The notes under the pieces were generated by a model. It did no database searches, had not been told where the DNA came from, and was given only the letters and a program-made list of their open reading frames with translations. This document shows positions 2,113-13,857 of a DNA stretch of 13,857 nt, one piece after another; position 1 is the first letter of the stretch; each line of letters opens with the position of its first letter. Source of the DNA: Methanobacteriota archaeon. Lineage in GTDB: Archaea > Thermoplasmatota > Poseidoniia > Poseidoniales > Thalassarchaeaceae. Location of the stretch: the NCBI GenBank assembly GCA_002685415.1, contig NYXO01000006.1, positions 87,358-101,214 on the forward strand, read 5' to 3'. The translations under genes were made by a program, and so were the position numbers.

Positions 2113-3429
2113 TCAACCAAAGAGATATCTTTCAGCTAATTCTGCGACTGGTTTCTCGTATCCTGAGAGAGTCATTACGTATACTACTGCTTGACTAACT
2201 TGTCTCTTTCTCAGAGCATCTGCTATTGGAGTATGTTCACTCATCTTTCTAGTTCTACCATCATCACCAATAATTCGAATATCAACAGCATCCATTCTAG
2301 GCTCAGATAATAGAAGTTTGACACTAGGGACATCAATTGCAACATACCCTGGTTCTAGACCTGCTCGATGAGCCAGATCATCTTCAATTTCTCTTCTCTT
2401 CTTCGAACTGTTTGCGATTTCAATTAATCGTTCTATTTGGGAATCTGACAAATCTCCCTGTCTTCTACTTGTAGCAACCTTTAGCATTTGACGATACTTT
2501 AGTCGCCTCATCATATCTCTAGAGTAATCCCCAGCTTCGTAAAGTGCTTGCCAAATTTCCGCATCGACACTTCTCTGCATATCTTTGGGGTCCGGGAGTG
2601 AATCTTCCGAACGCTCTACTGCTCTACTAAGCATGACCTCCGTCACTCTTGTTACCCGGTGGAAATAAACGGCACTATACATCAAACCTCTAGCAAGTAA
2701 CATCCCTTCTAGAGAAGCAAGACCTCCCTCTTCAACAGCAATGTCACCTCCATGTCTTCTTAGGCATGAAATCAAACGATGGTGGTCAACAATTCCATGG
2801 GTGACTCCTGTAAAATGAGAGTCACGCAATAGGTAATCCATCTGATCGCAATCTACCGGGCCGTGAACCAAATGGCCGAGAGTTTTGTCCTCTGCCACCA
2901 GATCTTCCTTACCATCGGTCCAAGACAGTAGAGTTCTCTCTGAGCCCTTTGCATCTGGTCCTCGGATCAAACTGGCAACATCTTCTGGTTCAATATTGTA
3001 AGATTCTAGAATATCAGGAATCCGTTTTCTGTTTTCAAAAATGGACTCTTCGCCTTTCCTTAGTACATCATATTCACCAAGGATTATACCTTCAGTAATT
3101 GACATATGGTCGAGTCCACCTCTTTCATGCAGTATGTGTTCAAGTGTGTGTGAATACGGACCATGCCCCACATCATGCAACATTCCTGCGACTTGAACCA
3201 GTGTCTTTTCTGAGTCATCTAATGACATTGCATCCGCCATCATCCCCCCTACATGGGATACTCCAAGTGAATGTTCGAAACGTGTATGGTGAGCCCCGGG
3301 AAATACGAGATGTGCAAGACCTAATTGTTTGATATGACTCAGTTTGTTCATTTCTGGCGTAGAGAGCAATTCTTCCCTGACTCCATCAAGAGAAATTTGC
3401 CCATGAATTGTGTCGTTGATGACCTTCAT
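2113..3429 (-). CDS. HD-domain phosphohydrolase, COG1078 / SAMHD1-like family
   Basis: This is a predicted metal-dependent phosphohydrolase of 438 residues. Family relatives include the SAMHD1 and EF1143-type dNTP triphosphohydrolases and many uncharacterised COG1078 proteins, so a dNTPase role in nucleotide pool control is plausible but not proven. The metal-binding set is complete: HTRFEHSLG with His53, the HD pair at 85-86 in LHDVGHGPYSH, and DCDQMDYLLRDSHFTG with the expected Asp195. The N-terminus (KVINDTIHG) is typical of the family, and the last 150 residues form a variable C-terminal region. The start is an ATG, with AGGTTG about 5 bases before it as a moderate ribosome binding site. 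The gene is divergent from the RHH regulator and probably cotranscribed with gdhA. No signal peptide or membrane segment is visible, so it is cytoplasmic. Confidence 0.88.
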   Translation of the reverse strand: MKVINDTIHGQISLDGVREELLSTPEMNKLSHIKQLGLAHLVFPGAHHTRFEHSLGVSHVGGMMADAMSLDDSEKTLVQVAGMLHDVGHGPYSHTLEHILHERGGLDHMSITEGIILGEYDVLRKGEESIFENRKRIPDILESYNIEPEDVASLIRGPDAKGSERTLLSWTDGKEDLVAEDKTLGHLVHGPVDCDQMDYLLRDSHFTGVTHGIVDHHRLISCLRRHGGDIAVEEGGLASLEGMLLARGLMYSAVYFHRVTRVTEVMLSRAVERSEDSLPDPKDMQRSVDAEIWQALYEAGDYSRDMMRRLKYRQMLKVATSRRQGDLSDSQIERLIEIANSSKKRREIEDDLAHRAGLEPGYVAIDVPSVKLLLSEPRMDAVDIRIIGDDGRTRKMSEHTPIADALRKRQVSQAVVYVMTLSGYEKPVAELAERYLFG

Positions 3430-4397: not shown

Positions 4398-6416
4398 ATG
4401 ACGGCGGAAGTAGTCGATTCTTCGACGAGATACTTCGCTCACCCTGAGGCTAGGGAATCTCAGTCAGACATGATATCAGATGGGATTGAGGCCTTGTTGT
4501 GCGAGGGCACTTTGCTAGCTTCAGCCCCCACTGGGATAGGGAAAACGGCTGCCTCATTAGCTAGCGCAATCAAGGTACAGAGATCGAGTTCTGATAATTT
4601 GAAGGTTTTATTCCTCACAGGTCGACAATCACAACATAAGATTGTAGTAGACACCGTATTGAAAATCAACCAAAAACTTGGATCAACTGAGCCATCAATA
4701 CGATTGGTAGATTTAATCGGTCGTGAAGGCATGTGTCAAAATGTAGACAGAATGACTGGGAAATGTGATTGTGAAGATCAATTAGACGGGACGATGAGGG
4801 AGGAATTGAGAGCCGACATGCAAGCGAATATTCTCCGAAGGGCGACTCATGTTGATGAATTAATCCAGAATAGTAGACGTGTTAATCTCTGCCCATGGGC
4901 AACAGCAAGAGAGGCTGTGAAGAATTGTGACATATTGGTTTGTGATTACAATCACGTTTTCATCGATAGTGTTAGGGAAGCATCGTTAGCTTCTATGGGG
5001 GTAGATATTGAAAACACTATTTTGGTTGTAGATGAAGCACATAATTTACCAGATAGAGTACGTAATGGGATGGAACGTAGAATAATTTCTAACACCTTTC
5101 GAGATGCTAGATTCGAAGTACAAGAACACTTGGAAACTGCCATTGAATTGGCTTCATCTAAGGGAGAAGATGTAGAATTAGATGAAATGGAGTGGGCTGA
5201 AAGATCGCTTAAACGCCTTCAATCCCAAATGCCTGCTTGGTTCTCAGCAAGAGAAAAGGAATTGGCTCGCTCTGATGAGGATGATATGCAAGTTGAGACA
5301 AAAAACCTACTAGAAGAAATGGAAAGTATACTCAACGAAACCCTGGAAGAAAAAACGAAAGGAAAATTCTCTAGCCTTCATAGACTCGTAGCACAACTAT
5401 ACTCTGTACGTGTTGATCTAGAAAATGAGGATGATGACGAGAGGGAAACAAGCAGTGAAAGGTTGGCTGCATTCATTACAACTTGTGGGAAATATGAAAA
5501 TTCATCCGCTCTTGTATTGGTTTTTGACAAATTACTGGATGAACCTAGGGTGAGATCATTTCTTCTCGACCCCGGAGTCGTATCCGGACCGCTGTTCTCA
5601 TCTTGCCGTGGCTCCATACTCATGTCAGGAACCTTATACCCCCCTGAAATGTATCGAGATCTACTGCGATTACCTGAAGATGAACAGAAGCGAGTTTTCG
5701 CAAAGGACTATGATTCTCCATTCTTATCTGAAAGGAGACCTGTTTTAGTTGCTCAAAATACTACTTCTAGATACACAGAACGTGGAGAGGCCAATACTAA
5801 CAATATACGTGATCATGTGATAGAGATATTACGAAATACGCCAGGTCATGTTGCGCTTTTTGCTCAAAGCTATGCTATGCTGGATATGGTACTGGACGAT
5901 TACCGGTGGGTGCCTTGGGGAATTAAAATAGAGAAAGAGAACCCTCGGATGAGTAAGCGACAAGTCTCAGAAATGGTTGAAAATCTATATCGTAAACGCA
6001 GAACAAATGACAGAATTATGCTTTGTGGAGTTCTCTCGGGAAAATTAGCGGAAGGTGTTGATTATCCTGAAAATATACTGGACGCAGTAATTTGCATTGG
6101 ACTACCTGTACCACCCCCAAGCGCACGACAGAAAGCATTGACAGAATATTGTCAAGATAAGTTTGGAATTAATTCTGCGAGAAGATATTCTAGCCATCAA
6201 CCTGCGGTAAACAGTGTACTACAAGCGATTGGTCGACCAATAAGGAAAGCCGAGGATAGAGCACTTGTAGTGATACTAGAAAAAAGAATTAGAGAAAAGC
6301 CGTACAAATTTTGTATCCCTAACAACCTCATGGTGATGAGATGCCAAGACGCGGAGAGAACTGGTCGTCTTGCCAAGAGGTTCTTCCAACGCTTTCCGGA
6401 ACCAGCTATAGAGTGA
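4398..6416 (+). CDS. XPD/Rad3-like superfamily 2 DNA helicase with Fe-S cysteines
   Basis: This is a predicted ATP-dependent 5'-3' DNA helicase of the Rad3/XPD/DinG group (COG1199), of 672 residues, likely acting in DNA repair. Motifs in order are Walker A SAPTGIGKT (Lys49); four candidate Fe-S cysteines at 113, 123, 125 and 165; Walker B VVDEAH (211-215, a DEAH box); motif III SGT (410-412); motif V GKLAEGVDYP (548-557); and motif VI QAIGRPIR (609-616), followed by the family's DRALVVILEKR. The charged helical stretch 250-350 takes the place of the XPD Arch domain. It is somewhat longer than many archaeal XPD proteins (about 550-600). The ATG at 4398 places the nucleotide-binding motif at the usual distance and has no ribosome binding site, as expected for a nearly leaderless gene. 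A small Hsp20-like gene follows after 51 bp. Confidence 0.93.
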   Translation: MTAEVVDSSTRYFAHPEARESQSDMISDGIEALLCEGTLLASAPTGIGKTAASLASAIKVQRSSSDNLKVLFLTGRQSQHKIVVDTVLKINQKLGSTEPSIRLVDLIGREGMCQNVDRMTGKCDCEDQLDGTMREELRADMQANILRRATHVDELIQNSRRVNLCPWATAREAVKNCDILVCDYNHVFIDSVREASLASMGVDIENTILVVDEAHNLPDRVRNGMERRIISNTFRDARFEVQEHLETAIELASSKGEDVELDEMEWAERSLKRLQSQMPAWFSAREKELARSDEDDMQVETKNLLEEMESILNETLEEKTKGKFSSLHRLVAQLYSVRVDLENEDDDERETSSERLAAFITTCGKYENSSALVLVFDKLLDEPRVRSFLLDPGVVSGPLFSSCRGSILMSGTLYPPEMYRDLLRLPEDEQKRVFAKDYDSPFLSERRPVLVAQNTTSRYTERGEANTNNIRDHVIEILRNTPGHVALFAQSYAMLDMVLDDYRWVPWGIKIEKENPRMSKRQVSEMVENLYRKRRTNDRIMLCGVLSGKLAEGVDYPENILDAVICIGLPVPPPSARQKALTEYCQDKFGINSARRYSSHQPAVNSVLQAIGRPIRKAEDRALVVILEKRIREKPYKFCIPNNLMVMRCQDAERTGRLAKRFFQRFPEPAIE

Positions 6417-6467
6417 GATTCAGACAATGGATTCATCAAAGTCGGATTATTCGCAAGGTTGAGTGAT

Positions 6468-6929
6468 ATGTGGCGGAAGGTCGAAATTTTAGGTTCCGAG
6501 ACCCTTGGTGAAGAATTAGATGACACTCTGGATAGAGGATTGGATATAGATGCCGAGACCATGCACAAACGATTTTTGGCAGACCTTCCGCATCTTGAAT
6601 CGGCAAAAAATAATCATAACGAGGTATTGACTCAAATTTCTGGTAGAATAGATGAGTCAAAGACAAATTCTAGGTCATTGGATTCAGATAGTGTTGCCTT
6701 CGATGAATTAGATCGAGAGGCGGCGAAAGCGGGATTTGAAATCAGTTTAGATATGGATTCTTTAACTGAACTTTCGGTAACTACGTCAATAGACGATGGT
6801 AGAAGATTAGTCCGAGTGATTGCCCCTGAACGCTTCGGAGGGATGATTCACACCCTTTCAGTTCCAGCGTCAATGGATGTTGATTCGGCAATCCTTACAG
6901 ATGGAATTCTTCATCTGAATTTTGATTGA
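6468..6929 (+). CDS. Small protein with a C-terminal Hsp20/p23-like domain
   Basis: This acidic cytoplasmic protein has 153 residues from the ATG at 6468. The C-terminal third resembles an alpha-crystallin/Hsp20 or CS/p23 beta-sandwich: FEISLDM, then strands around DGRRLVRVIAP, the FGGMIHTLSVPASMD segment that parallels the FxRxxxLPxxVD segment of small heat-shock proteins, and DGILHLNF at the GVLxI position. The protein ends right there, without the usual IxI tail. The N-terminal 90 residues are helical, charged and unrecognised. GGTTGA lies 5 bases before this ATG; a TTG at 6459 would add three residues. The gene follows the helicase and may share its transcript. A chaperone or scaffold role is only a suggestion from the fold, and I did not find a close known family. 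Confidence 0.6.
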   Translation: MWRKVEILGSETLGEELDDTLDRGLDIDAETMHKRFLADLPHLESAKNNHNEVLTQISGRIDESKTNSRSLDSDSVAFDELDREAAKAGFEISLDMDSLTELSVTTSIDDGRRLVRVIAPERFGGMIHTLSVPASMDVDSAILTDGILHLNFD

Positions 6930-9900
6930 TCAGGCGACTGCCTCACTGAGATCAAATGAATCTCTCTCTGGCACGTCTTGTAACTCATCGATTTCTTGCA
7001 ATACCATCGATAGCGCATGCTGAGCGTTTTGTCTGTGTCCATCCCCTAACTTGTGGGACGAATATCTCGCCTCTTCGAAAATTCGATCTAGTGCCACAAG
7101 AGCTTCCTCACTAATTGGTAGAGCCTTCCTGATTGCCATTTCGAATTCTCTGACAGTTTCGAAGTCTCTGCGTAGGAACCCGTTTCTCATTAGAATGTTG
7201 CAAAGGCTCTCATAGCAAGTGAAAATAGCTTCACGGATTTCATCTCCTGCGGCAAGTAATTCAGCAGTATAACTGAAGATTCCTGCCATCTCATCAATAG
7301 CCGCCAAACGACGTTTTCTGAGGGATAATGCTAATCCAACTAGGGTTCCTAAAATCAGTATTATTCCAATAATTGCTAAAATTTGCCAGAATGTGAAGAG
7401 TGGGGCTGGATCTTCGTAGGTCATCTCAATACCAGAATAATCGTTATTCAACCACAATCGATCATTCGGACTAATTAATTGAGAATCTGTTTGGAATAAT
7501 AGAGTTAATTCACCCCATCTATTTTTGTCATAAAATGCTGGTTGATTTTGTATAGTGAAATCATAATCCATTACGCCATTTGAATCCGTGAGTTTGACAT
7601 TTTGGAAATGTATTACAGATTGATTGACAAGTCTGGCAACAATTGAAATTCCTTCGACAGGTAAGCCTGTGTCATTGGCAGTAACTGTAACTGTGCCATT
7701 TATTCGCCGCTGATTTTCCTTGATGTGATGATTTTCCGGTGTAAATGTAAATGACACAGGAACTCGAATATTGACAATATGCTCAACATCTACACCATTC
7801 AAGAATCTATCAGCATCTGGGAGTGCAGATATTGTTAGAGAGAGTTCTCCAGGAGGCATGGTAGAGCGAGCAGGAGAGTTTAGTTCGAAGTGACCTGTGG
7901 ATTCGTCCCAAACAAGATTAGATGGTTCTGCTAAACCATTCCAAAGCAAGACTACTTCCATACCTTCAATGACGTTACTTTCACCGCCAACTTCGACTAT
8001 CCTAGCAACTAATTTAATTCCCTTAGAATCATCTGAACGGATTATCAAGTCAGTCTCCCAAAGAACCTCGATTTGGACATCTGCCTTAGCATATACCGTC
8101 ATGTTATATTCAACGGGAAGGTAGAATGTTTGACCCTCAAAGGTAAATCTGATATCGTGCCCCCCTCTTGAGATAAGGTAGCCAATTGAGTAATCAAATT
8201 CGAATACTCCATCGTCTCCTGTAGTAATTCGATCGATTTCTACACCATCAAGAGAGACGATAATTTCCCGACCTGAGAGGCCAGGAGCTCCAGCAGTATC
8301 TGAGTCAAACAAGCGGCCCGAGAAGTTCCATTGTTCTCCCCTAGTAACCGACACATCATCCACCTGCAGATTAATCGCAGTGTGGTAAGCGATGGTTAGA
8401 TTGGCATCTACACTTCCTGGTCTGTAGTAGCCTTGTGCTGGTGCGGATGCAGTAATTGTATGGAAACCGATGTCTAGGAAGTCAGATATCACCCAATTAA
8501 ATGACCAATCTCCGTTTTCTCGGCTTGTCGTAATTCCTACCAAGGTCCCATCAATGAAAATCTCTAGCGAGTGGTTTGCCAACCCACCATCCGGAAGATT
8601 ATCTCTAACTGAACCCGTTAGTCTCATTTCATCCCCTACAGCATAAGCACTTGGGGGGTCTATCGAAATGATAGTAGGTGCATAGACTGTGAATACTGTG
8701 GTTGAATTTGAAGATAGTATGAATTCCTCCCCTTGGAAAATTATCCTTACCAAACGAGGACCGAGTGGCATATCCGGTGGAATCGGGAGGTATACACTGA
8801 ATGTGCCATTTTCTTCAACTTGGAGTCCGGTCAAAAATTGATCATTCATTGTGACTTCTAGATATCTGTCACCCAGTGTACGCCCTGCTCCATCGGTAAG
8901 CATACCCTCTATCAGAAGTAGTTGATTTCTATCCACCTCTCCTGGAGGTGTCGTGAGAACCACTTGTGATGTTTGTGTCACATTGAATCCAACTGTAGTG
9001 GCAGAGGGTAGGTAGTATTCAGGATTCAAGGAATCTCCTTGACCCATTGGGTCTACCCAAGTAAATCCACCTAGGAATCTTGCAGTAACTGTATGAGCCC
9101 CATAATCCATGTCTAATGGCAGATCATAGGTTACTGTCCATTGCCCTGTTGATGCATTGGATATTGTTGTGTAGGACGAACCAACATCAATTCCATCTAT
9201 CCAAATATGGATTACTCCTCCTGAAATCAAACCGTTGTCAGTCAATAATTGACCATGTTCATCTAGAAGCGTGCCGGTGAAGGTTATGTTTTCTCCAGCA
9301 ATCATTGACCCAGTCAAATCTGAGAATTCGATCACAGTTGGAGCTAGAACTATCACTCTAGACCAAGTGGAATCTCCAATCAAACCCGTTGAACCACTTA
9401 TTCCTGGGAATTCTGCAGAAATCAACATAGGCCCTTGGGTCCTTTGTGAATCTACTGGGATGTTCAGTGATGCTCTGCCGGTTGCATCCGTAGTAACAGA
9501 TTGCAAGAATGACCCATCAACAAGGATCTCTATTTGTGCATTATCGACCAACTGACCTGCGTTATCGATTATTGAGAGATTGACACTAACGTCATTGCCT
9601 CGAATAACTCTTCTGTCAGGGTCTAAATCTGCTGGATCTAAGATTGAGATTAGTGAGTATCCCCTACTGTCGAAATTACCTATGTTACTACTAGAACCGT
9701 AATAATTTACGGTTGGTGTGTAACTTGCAGTGAGATTATGGGTCCCTCTTGGGAAAGATAATCCGAGGGTTATCACAGCACTCCAAGTTCCATTTGGATT
9801 AACAACACCGCCTGTTGCTTGGAAACCAGAATCAGTACCGTCAATCGAGAATGTAAGTGAAGAAGGTAAAGCTGCTCCGGTCCTATCCATTATTCCGGTT

Positions 9901-12900
9901 CCATTGCTAGAAAGTAAAGTACCACTAACATTGAATGATTCACCAGCAACTGGATTTTCTGTGATAGTCGAGATTGTTAGGTTCGTTGGAGAACGAACGA
10001 ATATTTGATTCATCACTGTTGTAGTTGAAAGTAGGGTTGATGAACCGTTGAAGTACAGGGTGATACCGATTAGCCCAAGTGGATGAGAATGTGGGACGTC
10101 GAATGTGAAATTAATTTGACCTTGGCCATTAGTAACTCCCTCGGTCAACCATGTATCATGGAACTTAGCTGCAACGTCTGCACCTCCGACTGGAAGGTCA
10201 TTATCTGAAAACTCTGTCAATCTAGCTCCGAAAGTAATTGATGTACCCCTGTCGACGACGGTCTGAATTATTGGAGTTCTGTCTGTGAATCGAGTAACGC
10301 CCTTCACTAAGATAGAAGCATTGCCAGTACCCGTAAGATAGAACGGGGTACTTCCTTCAATCACGCTGACGACTACTGTCTTCGAGCCGCTTGATACTCC
10401 ATCTCCAAATGGATCAGTCGGTACAGATACCGAGAACGAACCATTGTTTGTTGTGGTGTGACTGGACACAAGTGTTTCGCTTGAATCATTTAGGAAGAAG
10501 ACTTCAACCGCCATTGGTCCACTTACGCTTCTATTTCCATCAAATCCATCTAAGACTCGTCCTGTAAGTGTGAATGATTGGCCCGCAGTGACCTCTTGGG
10601 GTATTGAGATAATCTCGACCTGGCTGTTTACTTGGACGGTTAGGTTCGCGAATGTATCATTGCCGAGCCAGCGCCCTGGGTCGTTATCCGTTAGGTTATC
10701 TGTAATGTCATCAGAGGCATGAACACGAAGATCATAGAAGCCAGGAGTAGTATCCTCTAGAATAGTCGGATTAAATCTCGCAACACCATCGACATCTGTT
10801 GTGGCTGTATCTATTATTACCTGATTCGGACCACCCCAATCGAAGTATAGGTCAACATCCACATCGGATACGATAGAATCATCTGCGGCATCTGAAATTG
10901 TTGCATTAACAATGAGAGTTGTTCCGGCGATGACTATGATTGATTGGGGTTCTGCATCAACCACAAATTCACTTTGAAGGCCTGCAAGTACCCTTGTTTG
11001 GACTAGTGTAGTGTAGAACGGGCCAAGAACCTCTGAGTTGGTTGAGAAATCTAGCACAAATCTAAGGAAATAGGCTCCAGATCTGACATCACTTGGCATG
11101 ATGAACGAATAATTGTAAAATCCGGTTGTCTGATTTATCCAACCGCTTACGAGAGGGACAATAACAGGAGGCGCAGGGCTACCGTCTGGCCCAGGGGGAA
11201 GTTCTGAGGGGGTCTCCATTTGGATAACAATAGAGGAATTGTTACCGGTAATTGGAGTTAGGTGGAATATATCCTGAGCGAAACCAGACACCCAAGTTAC
11301 GGTACCCCTATCGGTCCACTCTGAGCCCAAAGTCACGGTTACATTCGCCCTGCCCTGTATACGGATTTTGTCGGTAACGGAAGTTGGCCTGAGCCAAGTA
11401 GAGCCTGTATAGTTGAGTTCCCAATCGTAGTCCCCTGCAAACATATCGGAATTTGGTGACCAAACTACGTTGAAATTACCCGAGTCAGGGTCGGTTATGT
11501 TGAACACCTCAGTGCCATTAAAATCGACAGCATATGTCCCCGGGAAATCAGCAACCGAAGTACCGGTGTGATCAGATAATTGAACTTCGACTATTGCTTC
11601 AAGACCCCTCTCCTTTGGATTTAGTGTATATTCAAATTCCACATATGACCTAATACCAAAAGTCGAAGCGAAAGTCTCCTCATCAGAAGCGAATAAGTCA
11701 TCTGCTGTGTACTTAAATTTCACATCCACAAAGCCTGCAGGTATTGGCACGGTCGACTCATTGAAGTCCCATTGAATGGAAAATTGACCGGGAGAAGTTG
11801 TCCAATTACTGGAGTTTAAATCCCATGTTGCGAGGTCTGTATAGGGACCATTTGTTCCAGCTCTTCGCATCTGGAAAATAAGTGTACCATTCAATGGGTC
11901 GGCATTAGGACCTCTACTAACTGCGGTCCCATTAATGAAAACTAATTGATTAATATCAAGGATTGAGTTATTCGAATCACTGCCTTCCAGAGATATTGAA
12001 AGATCAGGTGAGGGTGTGATATTGAAATTAAAATCTAATATCGTTGGTCTTAGATGATATTCGGGAATACTGGCATTATTCAAGTCACTCTGATGCCAAC
12101 CTAAGAATTCCATACTGGCATTAATCAGGCCTAACGACTCATTTTCAGAAATAGGAACTACAAATTCAAAGTATCCTCCTGAACCTACCTCGGTAATTAG
12201 GTTAACATCACCGTCTTCTATTGTTGTGTAGTTGATGAGAACTTGGAGGCTATCGAGAATTGCGGGGTCGGTTTGAGGCAAATTTTCTAATGCCAAATAA
12301 CCAGTAACGGTTGTACTTACACCCACTCCTAGCATAGGCTGATCTATGGGTACTGGATAGCTAATCGCCAAATTTACATCATCTGTGATATTAATTCTCC
12401 ATGGGAATGAAATTCCCTGAACGCCTACGTACCCCTTGGATTGAGTTACCACGACTAAGGAACCATATCCTGGACTAATCATTTCAGTGGGAGAGCCATT
12501 GAATGAAAAGAATCCTTCTGAATCAGTGACAGTAGTACCAATCAGTCTATTTGACTGTGCAGCGCTACCAGGAACATTTGCCGTTTCATTATCTGGTACC
12601 AAGTAAAGTTCTATTGTGATCCCCTCAATGCTCGAAGAGTTGCTTACGAATTGTAATGTTCCATTGAGTGTAATGTTTCCTGAGGAGTAATCCCTGTCCA
12701 AGGTATCTGGCGAATATGTCTCATCTACAACTTCGACCACGGAGGCCTCAGGACAGGCTTCAAATGGAATCCAACCAAGGTCTAATTCTCCTTGATTTGC
12801 ATTTGTTTGAAGGTGGACTTCTACCCACCATGAGAAATCATTGCCATAAACTTCGAATCCATTGTCGACCCAAGTTCCACCCGAGAAGCCCGTTACCTTC

Positions 12901-13857
12901 CTTGTAGGCAAACCAATACTTCTCAACATGGCTGCGAAGACTGTGGCAAACTCATCACAATCTCCTTGTTGAGCCTCTTCTAGAATCCACACTGTAGTAT
13001 CATCCAGTGCTTCTGACACACCTGAAGACGTTGTTCGATTCAGATTCGAGCCGGCATAATTCCTCAGGAATGTCGTTGTATTGTTGCCGTTGATGAGGAA
13101 TTGTTGGATTGCCTCAATCTGATCCCAAGCAGATACCCATCCACTTTCGTCTAGTACCTGTTGTGTGATGATTGAAACATTATCGAATCCATCATATTCA
13201 GTAGCATATGTACTATTTTGGAAAGCTGTAGTATTGTCTCTAATCGCATCAGTAAAGATGACTTGGGGTGTAGTGACAAACAATTCATCAATAGTAGAGG
13301 AATCTATCAGAACATCCCTAGTGTAATTTGAGAAATTGAGACCGGTTGAGGTATCGCTCCAACTTGTATAATTGACTGCATTGTAAGGTGCAATCAACTC
13401 CTCTCCGGGACTTAGTATACCATTGTTGCTGAATGATATTTGCCAAGAATGTAAGGCAGAATTATCCCAAAAGTCTGGATGTGCGACCCCTTGAGTTGTT
13501 GACCATGTCGGGAACATCTGAGTATAACCAACGAGTGTTTTGTTGACACCCCATGAAACACCAGTATAGTAATCATACGTATGCCATCTCCAATAGTGGG
13601 TTTGATTGAAGTCAATTCCAATTGTGGTATTCTCTGCAAAGAAGTATAGCATGTTTGTAGAGAGATCATCAGTCGGATCCCAAGGGCTGAAAGGAGAATC
13701 TATACAGTCGTTATCCCAGTATTCCGGAAGACATTCGTCACCATCTGGAATACCGCCTCCATCCGTGTCTGGGTCCAGCCAATCTGTTCCCAATTCTCTT
13801 TCTATAGTATCTGGAATCCCATCTCCATCTGTATCCAATGGGTTCATATCGTCATTA
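6930..13857 (-). CDS. Giant cell-surface protein: TSP3-like repeats, transglutaminase-like domain, about 16 Ig-like repeats, TM helix, DUF4129; 5' truncated by window edge
   Basis: The frame is open to the window edge and shows 2,308 residues; numbering here is from the Met codon at 13847, which is internal because Asn-Asp-Asp precede it in frame and no signal peptide follows. The order is Asp-rich DTDGDGIPD-type calcium-binding repeats (1-40); an unrecognised ectodomain (60-280); a transglutaminase-like core (about 285-375); about 16 beta-sandwich repeats of 95-120 residues (390-2145), many with a G-x-hydrophobic-D start and a TDxxGxF turn, like bacterial Ig-like domains; one TM helix (2153-2176) followed by RKRR; and a cytoplasmic DUF4129 domain (2195-2290). 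N-x-S/T sequons are abundant outside and suit an archaeal N-glycosylated surface protein. The overall plan is TgpA-like with a huge stalk. The catalytic His and Asp appear replaced, so a binding or adhesion role is more likely than an enzymatic one. Confidence 0.9.
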   Translation of the reverse strand, partial: NDDMNPLDTDGDGIPDTIERELGTDWLDPDTDGGGIPDGDECLPEYWDNDCIDSPFSPWDPTDDLSTNMLYFFAENTTIGIDFNQTHYWRWHTYDYYTGVSWGVNKTLVGYTQMFPTWSTTQGVAHPDFWDNSALHSWQISFSNNGILSPGEELIAPYNAVNYTSWSDTSTGLNFSNYTRDVLIDSSTIDELFVTTPQVIFTDAIRDNTTAFQNSTYATEYDGFDNVSIITQQVLDESGWVSAWDQIEAIQQFLINGNNTTTFLRNYAGSNLNRTTSSGVSEALDDTTVWILEEAQQGDCDEFATVFAAMLRSIGLPTRKVTGFSGGTWVDNGFEVYGNDFSWWVEVHLQTNANQGELDLGWIPFEACPEASVVEVVDETYSPDTLDRDYSSGNITLNGTLQFVSNSSSIEGITIELYLVPDNETANVPGSAAQSNRLIGTTVTDSEGFFSFNGSPTEMISPGYGSLVVVTQSKGYVGVQGISFPWRINITDDVNLAISYPVPIDQPMLGVGVSTTVTGYLALENLPQTDPAILDSLQVLINYTTIEDGDVNLITEVGSGGYFEFVVPISENESLGLINASMEFLGWHQSDLNNASIPEYHLRPTILDFNFNITPSPDLSISLEGSDSNNSILDINQLVFINGTAVSRGPNADPLNGTLIFQMRRAGTNGPYTDLATWDLNSSNWTTSPGQFSIQWDFNESTVPIPAGFVDVKFKYTADDLFASDEETFASTFGIRSYVEFEYTLNPKERGLEAIVEVQLSDHTGTSVADFPGTYAVDFNGTEVFNITDPDSGNFNVVWSPNSDMFAGDYDWELNYTGSTWLRPTSVTDKIRIQGRANVTVTLGSEWTDRGTVTWVSGFAQDIFHLTPITGNNSSIVIQMETPSELPPGPDGSPAPPVIVPLVSGWINQTTGFYNYSFIMPSDVRSGAYFLRFVLDFSTNSEVLGPFYTTLVQTRVLAGLQSEFVVDAEPQSIIVIAGTTLIVNATISDAADDSIVSDVDVDLYFDWGGPNQVIIDTATTDVDGVARFNPTILEDTTPGFYDLRVHASDDITDNLTDNDPGRWLGNDTFANLTVQVNSQVEIISIPQEVTAGQSFTLTGRVLDGFDGNRSVSGPMAVEVFFLNDSSETLVSSHTTTNNGSFSVSVPTDPFGDGVSSGSKTVVVSVIEGSTPFYLTGTGNASILVKGVTRFTDRTPIIQTVVDRGTSITFGARLTEFSDNDLPVGGADVAAKFHDTWLTEGVTNGQGQINFTFDVPHSHPLGLIGITLYFNGSSTLLSTTTVMNQIFVRSPTNLTISTITENPVAGESFNVSGTLLSSNGTGIMDRTGAALPSSLTFSIDGTDSGFQATGGVVNPNGTWSAVITLGLSFPRGTHNLTASYTPTVNYYGSSSNIGNFDSRGYSLISILDPADLDPDRRVIRGNDVSVNLSIIDNAGQLVDNAQIEILVDGSFLQSVTTDATGRASLNIPVDSQRTQGPMLISAEFPGISGSTGLIGDSTWSRVIVLAPTVIEFSDLTGSMIAGENITFTGTLLDEHGQLLTDNGLISGGVIHIWIDGIDVGSSYTTISNASTGQWTVTYDLPLDMDYGAHTVTARFLGGFTWVDPMGQGDSLNPEYYLPSATTVGFNVTQTSQVVLTTPPGEVDRNQLLLIEGMLTDGAGRTLGDRYLEVTMNDQFLTGLQVEENGTFSVYLPIPPDMPLGPRLVRIIFQGEEFILSSNSTTVFTVYAPTIISIDPPSAYAVGDEMRLTGSVRDNLPDGGLANHSLEIFIDGTLVGITTSRENGDWSFNWVISDFLDIGFHTITASAPAQGYYRPGSVDANLTIAYHTAINLQVDDVSVTRGEQWNFSGRLFDSDTAGAPGLSGREIIVSLDGVEIDRITTGDDGVFEFDYSIGYLISRGGHDIRFTFEGQTFYLPVEYNMTVYAKADVQIEVLWETDLIIRSDDSKGIKLVARIVEVGGESNVIEGMEVVLLWNGLAEPSNLVWDESTGHFELNSPARSTMPPGELSLTISALPDADRFLNGVDVEHIVNIRVPVSFTFTPENHHIKENQRRINGTVTVTANDTGLPVEGISIVARLVNQSVIHFQNVKLTDSNGVMDYDFTIQNQPAFYDKNRWGELTLLFQTDSQLISPNDRLWLNNDYSGIEMTYEDPAPLFTFWQILAIIGIILILGTLVGLALSLRKRRLAAIDEMAGIFSYTAELLAAGDEIREAIFTCYESLCNILMRNGFLRRDFETVREFEMAIRKALPISEEALVALDRIFEEARYSSHKLGDGHRQNAQHALSMVLQEIDELQDVPERDSFDLSEAVA
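6978..7391 (-). other. Transmembrane helix and cytoplasmic DUF4129 domain
   Basis: A 24-residue hydrophobic helix (7320-7391) is followed by RKRR, which fixes the C-terminus inside the cell by the positive-inside rule. The next about 95 residues (6978-7265) match the DUF4129 pattern: IREAIFTCYESLCNIL, then GFLRRDFETVREFE, then LDRIFEEARYSSHKLG. This domain ends bacterial TgpA-like transglutaminase proteins, often encoded near MoxR ATPases and DUF58 proteins. Confidence 0.85.
12723..12995 (-). other. Transglutaminase-like domain with altered catalytic triad
   Basis: The Cys motif QQGDCDEFATVFAAMLRSIG is intact (Cys297, codon 12957-12959) and is followed by the family's GLPTRKVTGF. At the usual HAWVEV position the protein reads SWWVEV, giving Ser339 (codon TCA, 12831-12833) for His. 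At the usual GWVPFDPTP position it reads GWIPFEACP, giving Glu363 (codon GAA, 12759-12761) for Asp. The fold call is firm; loss of transglutaminase or protease activity is inferred. Confidence 0.8.
13728..13857 (-). other. Thrombospondin type 3-like calcium-binding repeats at the visible N-terminal end
   Basis: Two DxDxDGxxD-type units are visible (DTDGDGIPD and DPDTDGGGIPD), separated by ERELGTDWL. The spacing is that of TSP3/EF-hand-like repeats found in many secreted prokaryotic proteins. The second unit has Gly in place of the usual Asp at one ligand position. More copies probably lie upstream of the window. Confidence 0.75.

Follow-up and report, generated by a model that had tools for sequence, protein, structure and literature searches.

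A probable order-wide pseudo-transglutaminase domain in a giant surface protein of Poseidoniales

The transglutaminase (TG) domain of a giant surface protein of the archaeal order Poseidoniales lacks the catalytic His and keeps two invariant cysteines, Cys297 and Cys365, whereas giant relatives outside the order retain an intact triad. The domain has a predicted TgpA-type fold, and the other conserved cysteines of the ectodomain follow a paired pattern. We propose, with a probability of roughly 0.8, that the Poseidoniales domain is a fixed pseudo-transglutaminase in which Cys297 and Cys365 form a disulfide, and that it is a non-catalytic module of a surface protein of about 2980 residues.

According to this putative mechanism, a TgpA-type fold whose Cys-His-Asp chemistry would be unusable has become fixed in Poseidoniales inside a membrane-anchored surface protein. 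Two substitutions would underlie this, one removing the catalytic His and the other exchanging Thr for Cys at the second residue past the catalytic Asp column (Asp+2). A structural disulfide between Cys297 and Cys365 would then span what was the active-site tunnel, stabilising the fold and sequestering the nucleophile. The domain, probably inactive, would act in an Ig-repeat surface protein, whose DUF4129 tail is intracellular, either as a rigid non-catalytic support or as a binding module. Surface binding, as a putative function of such a domain, is plausible.

Architecture and genomic setting of the giant protein

The window (the whole stretch of DNA that was analysed, 13,857 nucleotides) contains the C-terminal ~2305 of the 2978 residues of the giant protein, in a minus-strand frame (6930..13847) whose start lies outside, since window and contig both end within it. 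The whole gene, encoding 2978 aa, was read on C71, another contig of the same genome (L004:7135-16065), and full-length residue numbers equal those of the window plus 673. The overlap of C71 with the window spans 8.4 kb (99.3% identity), and within it the encoded proteins differ at 2 residues, both far from the TG domain. Mixed strains or a redundant contig are the proposed alternatives for this overlap. C71 and window positions 5425-13857 part inside a helicase gene, whose C71 copy seems more divergent. The window also encodes, at 4398-6416 (plus strand), a Rad3/XPD- and DinG-like helicase that scores below the Rad3 cut-off and, at 2113-3429 (minus strand), an HD-domain protein with weak dGTPase-like matches.

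From its N terminus, the full-length protein comprises one hydrophobic segment, TSP3-type repeats, a pre-TG domain and TG core, an Ig-like stretch, a transmembrane segment and DUF4129, and all window coordinates given for it below are on the minus strand. A TSP3-type repeat (13776..13835) falls below the curated cut-off in its window part, and the full protein reaches 28.1 bits against a cut-off of 25. It is followed by a co-conserved cysteine pair, Cys39 and Cys48 (13704..13733; full-length 712 and 721), and by the TgpA-like unit of pre-TG beta domain and TG core (12648..13670, as modelled). Within this unit, Transglut_core PF01841 matches window residues 279-364 (12756..13013; full-length 952-1036) at 53.3 bits with a cut-off of 23, and a TgpA fold was predicted by a structure model; both the profile score and the predicted transglutaminase fold place the domain in the PF01841 superfamily as a fold family. 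The best Ig-like repeat of the stalk is a Big_3_5 match (9684..9962; 57.7 bits, three stretches). A transmembrane segment was assigned by hydropathy (7314..7409; full-length 2820-2851), and the DUF4129 tail (PF13559) lies at 7011..7217 with 29.6 bits against a cut-off of 24.8.

A close counterpart among the structural families compared is TgpA from Pseudomonas aeruginosa (PDB 6g49, 6g4h). Proteins of the TgpA family carry several N-terminal membrane segments. The Poseidoniales protein has the periplasmic pre-TG and TG unit and the C-terminal DUF4129 domain of this family, but differs in that hydropathy gives it just one hydrophobic segment at the N terminus and that it has a long stalk of Ig repeats, and, in contrast to the intact triad of TgpA, it lacks the His and has gained Cys365. 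TgpA itself is described as active in an assay in the accessible text of PMC3507681.

Directly upstream of the giant gene lies a gene for a ~987-residue membrane protein with almost no known domains (L004:4084-7047, plus strand). This neighbour was present at 12/12 named loci of relatives, an oxidoreductase-like gene at 11/12 and a convergent helicase at 10/12, and the misses fall where the stored stretch is short. The giant gene and the adjacent membrane-protein gene appear to form a conserved unit. MoxR and DUF58 genes, which commonly accompany TgpA-type genes, stand side by side elsewhere in the genome than the giant gene. A second giant surface protein encoded in these genomes, of ~2680 aa where complete, also ends in a DUF4129 tail (L268:1951-10002, minus strand; also L269-L271 and L274), and the one copy scanned (L268) gave no PF01841 match. 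Apart from the giant protein, no PF01841 protein was found in G000 and 11 genomes of the same genus (12 genomes, 57-93% complete), so for this set we rejected the idea that the same genome also encodes another, active transglutaminase. Eight genomes of the second family of the order carry at least one further transglutaminase, mostly of 517-565 aa. A separate transglutaminase-like protein of second-family genomes (L224-L239), with GDCDE and HAW/HGW motifs, keeps Cys and His at 16/16 loci read.

Active-site columns across the order

The original prediction described a domain that keeps Cys297 and carries Ser339 and Glu363 at the catalytic His and Asp columns. This assignment is borne out by the codons of Cys297 (12957..12959; full-length 970), Ser339 (12831..12833) and Glu363 (12759..12761), by the PF01841 match and by C71, which contains an identical 416-residue stretch including the Ser339/Glu363 domain. 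A sequencing error, previously judged unlikely, is excluded because the second contig agrees; sequencing or assembly error as the source of the missing His was rejected by the C71 copy together with the pattern in 107 genomes. Glu363, which had been listed as an altered residue, proved ordinary: Glu is a common natural variant at this column, found in 23/67 relatives that keep Cys and His and in 41/42 proteins of a further search (described below), and a second triad loss at Glu363 was rejected. The informative loss is that of the His, and Glu at the Asp column is none.

Among 7997 candidates scored, 271 homologues were found, and the best 120 of these 271 were aligned with the query to give 121 rows. 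Because Trp341 and Glu343 of the HxWxE motif do not vary (121/121 rows), the alignment of the His column is firm, and in the phmmer alignment SWWVEV faces HAWVEY of TgpA. Cys297 and Cys365 (12753..12755; full-length 1038), the latter at Asp+2, are each Cys in 121/121 rows. The His column holds Thr (71), Ser (17), Ala (17), Asp (8), Gly (4), Asn (3) and Gln (1) but His in none, and the Asp column holds Glu (70), Asp (27), Gln (11), Asn (8) and others (5). Position 345 is His in 97 rows and Arg, Gln or Asn in 24.

The protein matched in 140/148 genomes of the same family (a few to short pieces only) and in 113/115 genomes of an order-wide sample, and on unbroken contigs the gene is mostly a single open frame of about 2950-3050 residues. 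The whole domain was read in 107 genomes of the order, 55 from the second family and 52 from the first; for the latter, 53 of the 140 matched genomes were read and G039 was dropped for its cut-off domain. The group names used here, that is Thalassarchaeaceae, Poseidoniaceae, Marine Group III and Poseidoniales as Marine Group II, are our own inferred assignments. Cys297 and Cys365 were each present in 107/107 genomes and the catalytic His in 0/107. The Asp column was Asp in 52, Glu in 43 and another residue in 12, with Asp in 49/55 genomes of the second family. At position 345, this family carries Arg in 44/55 genomes, Arg, Lys or Asn in 51/55 and His in 4/55. Overall, the substitutes at the His column were Thr, Ser, Ala, Asp, Arg, Asn, Gly, Lys and Gln. 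The Cys-His-Asp/Glu triad of an active transglutaminase is therefore incomplete throughout, and within the order the original prediction holds as to the missing canonical His (His in 0/121 rows and 0/107 genomes). On the question whether Ser339 and Glu363 are fixed, neither is, nor is His345; the constant features are the lack of His and the two cysteines. Ser339 as a fixed feature or a new nucleophile was rejected, the column being mostly Thr, Ser or Ala.

We considered whether Cys297 is still catalytic with another base, such as His345 (12813..12815), a nearby His or substrate assistance, which would represent new chemistry. This is very unlikely. It would fit the invariance of Cys297 (121/121 rows, 107/107 genomes) and the occurrence of His345 in 97 of the 121 rows from the query and best 120 homologues. 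However, neither the pre-TG nor the TG domain has a conserved His (the best columns reach 91/115 and 89/115), position 345 is Arg, Lys or Asn in 51/55 second-family genomes and the Asp column is variable, while the retention of Cys297 is accounted for by Cys365, which is equally invariant and would be its partner. Therefore His345, which had been put forward as an alternative base, was rejected as a substitute. Of the two readings offered at the outset, the pseudo-enzyme is favoured by the absence of the catalytic His (0/121, 0/107) and of any conserved His nearby, whereas altered chemistry is not supported, given the variable substitute, the non-conserved His345 and the invariant Cys365.

A functionless remnant in decay is a hardly credible reading of the domain. 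Free variation at the His and Asp columns would fit it, as would the second giant DUF4129 protein, which manages without a TG domain. Nevertheless, 22 columns of the domain are identical in at least 115 of the 121 rows (query and best 120 of 271), and both families maintain the length and the gene neighbours. As would be expected of a pseudo-transglutaminase scaffold, the fold is kept and the triad is broken, and this state is fixed in a clade.

Cysteine pairing and the putative disulfide

Cysteine pairs were read in 115 proteins, namely the best 120 of the 271 homologues minus 6 of 2900 aa or shorter and plus the C71 copy. The conserved ectodomain cysteines occur as close neighbours that are retained or lost jointly. 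The pairs 169/194, 421/449, 536/549 and 603/624 were each present in 115/115 proteins. Pair 288/301 was found in 112/115, with one half missing in 3, and pair 712/721 was complete in 108/115 and wholly absent in 7. Two further pairs are lineage-specific, with both members in 23 and 14 of the 115 proteins and no member ever alone. Between full-length residues 721 and 2884, Cys297 (970) and Cys365 (1038) are the only well-conserved cysteines in these 115 proteins. Near 2646, a lineage-specific couple occurs in 12 to 14 proteins, partly paired and incomplete in 2/14. An odd number of cysteines in the columns taken as extracellular, found in 24/115 proteins, counts against the disulfide reading, as do the incomplete 288/301 and 2646 pairs.

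Because Cys297 and Cys365 are both invariant and the other conserved ectodomain cysteines are co-conserved in pairs, we infer a disulfide between them as the best reading of these alignments. In human TG2, the Asp+2 residue, Thr360, is reported to form the active-site tunnel with Trp241 and Trp332 (accessible text of PMC13073648). Since Thr360 lines the tunnel, a Cys at Asp+2 should face the nucleophile. The residue set of the original prediction was right about Cys297 but missed its invariant putative partner, Cys365 (121/121 rows, 107/107 genomes).

Two invariant cysteines at a former active site might also form a reversible redox switch or a metal site rather than a permanent bridge, and redox control of human TG2 by Cys370/Cys371 has been reported (accessible text of PMC13073648). 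We regard this as unlikely: the other conserved ectodomain cysteines are paired as well, as expected of plain structural disulfides, and no further conserved His or Cys is present to complete a metal site.

Relatives outside the order and biological meaning

One search of other bacteria and archaea yielded 68 outside loci, chosen by patterns without the His, and Cys and His were kept in 68/68. One locus lacks the domain end; in the remaining 67, the Asp column is Asp in 44 and Glu in 23, and Asp+2 is Thr in 61 and Cys in 0. A search from L204, a Marine Group III-like giant relative, gave 42 proteins, some of them more distant and multi-domain. In the best domain of each, Cys and His are kept in all, the Asp column is Glu in 41 and Asp in 1, and Asp+2 is Thr in 42/42. 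The giant TG-Ig-DUF4129 proteins of Marine Group III-like archaea (L204, P0121-P0123 and others) are similar in size to the Poseidoniales protein, and L204 shares its TSP3, TG core, Ig-like repeats and DUF4129, but they differ from it in their intact Cys-His-Glu/Asp triad and their Thr at Asp+2. Six proteins (P0124, P0125, P0140, P0148, P0151 and P0160) carry two to four TG domains, with Cys in some copies and Ser or Ala in others. P0155, recorded as Poseidoniales, has an intact triad; we took this label as loose because the protein is nearer to P0149 of the same set (65% identity) than to the giant family (24%, over part of its length).

Other groups of the phylum supplied 20 loci, six of them from the same class. 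Of these, 9 have intact triads, 10 have Ser or Ala for Cys with His kept, and 1 lacks both; Cys at Asp+2 occurred in none of the 20. The loci in which the catalytic Cys has become Ser or Ala (L210, L213-L215 and L217-L223, one also without His) represent a separate triad loss in other Thermoplasmatota. Giant members of this set, such as L213-L215, resemble the Poseidoniales protein in having a broken triad, and L213 in its TG core, Ig-like match and DUF4129, but they followed another route to loss, with Cys replaced and His kept in 10/11. In a tree of 66 domains, the order forms a single branch (SH-aLRT 100) separate from the lineages that lost the Cys. The tree requires at least 4 changes of triad state; it is a quick one, with a weak root and 30/63 internal branches drawn open. 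Therefore, the triad was lost more than once in the phylum, via different residues.

We also considered, as a tentative and rather doubtful extension, that the closed cleft is a fixed ligand- or partner-binding head of the giant protein, locked by the disulfide, and that the DUF4129 tail couples it through the membrane, perhaps to MoxR-DUF58 machinery encoded elsewhere. In relatives within the phylum, this head would have been disarmed by exchanging Cys for Ser or Ala, and catalysis would therefore have been dispensable more than once while the architecture was kept.

Erythrocyte band 4.2, Rad4/XPC and FBXO21 are described as inactive transglutaminase folds serving as scaffolds, so this kind of case is known. 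These examples are eukaryotic, and the accessible parts of the sources describe no case in which a Cys at Asp+2 captures the nucleophile. What seems new for the Poseidoniales pseudo-transglutaminase is the archaeal, order-wide occurrence, the nucleophile kept as the putative half of a disulfide and the intact giant relatives outside. Among titles and abstract openings in the open-access PMC literature, no description of such a case was found; the one paper linking transglutaminase to Poseidoniales concerns ice-binding proteins, and none joined transglutaminase with the group II euryarchaea or DUF4129 with archaea, a result that speaks for this literature alone. Poseidoniales are described as lacking cultured members (accessible text of PMC6461757 and PMC6336850), and adhesion has been argued to matter to them, thrombospondin genes being widespread (accessible text of PMC6461757).

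Overall, the Poseidoniales domain offers a clear natural case in which an enzyme nucleophile has apparently found a second use, throughout an order of marine archaea, as one half of a structural disulfide, and the intact giant relatives outside the order provide a ready control. Source names such as "transglutaminase-like putative cysteine protease", which some members bear, are misleading on activity. Additionally, our data indicate that Poseidoniales have a pair of surface proteins that is conserved and unstudied.
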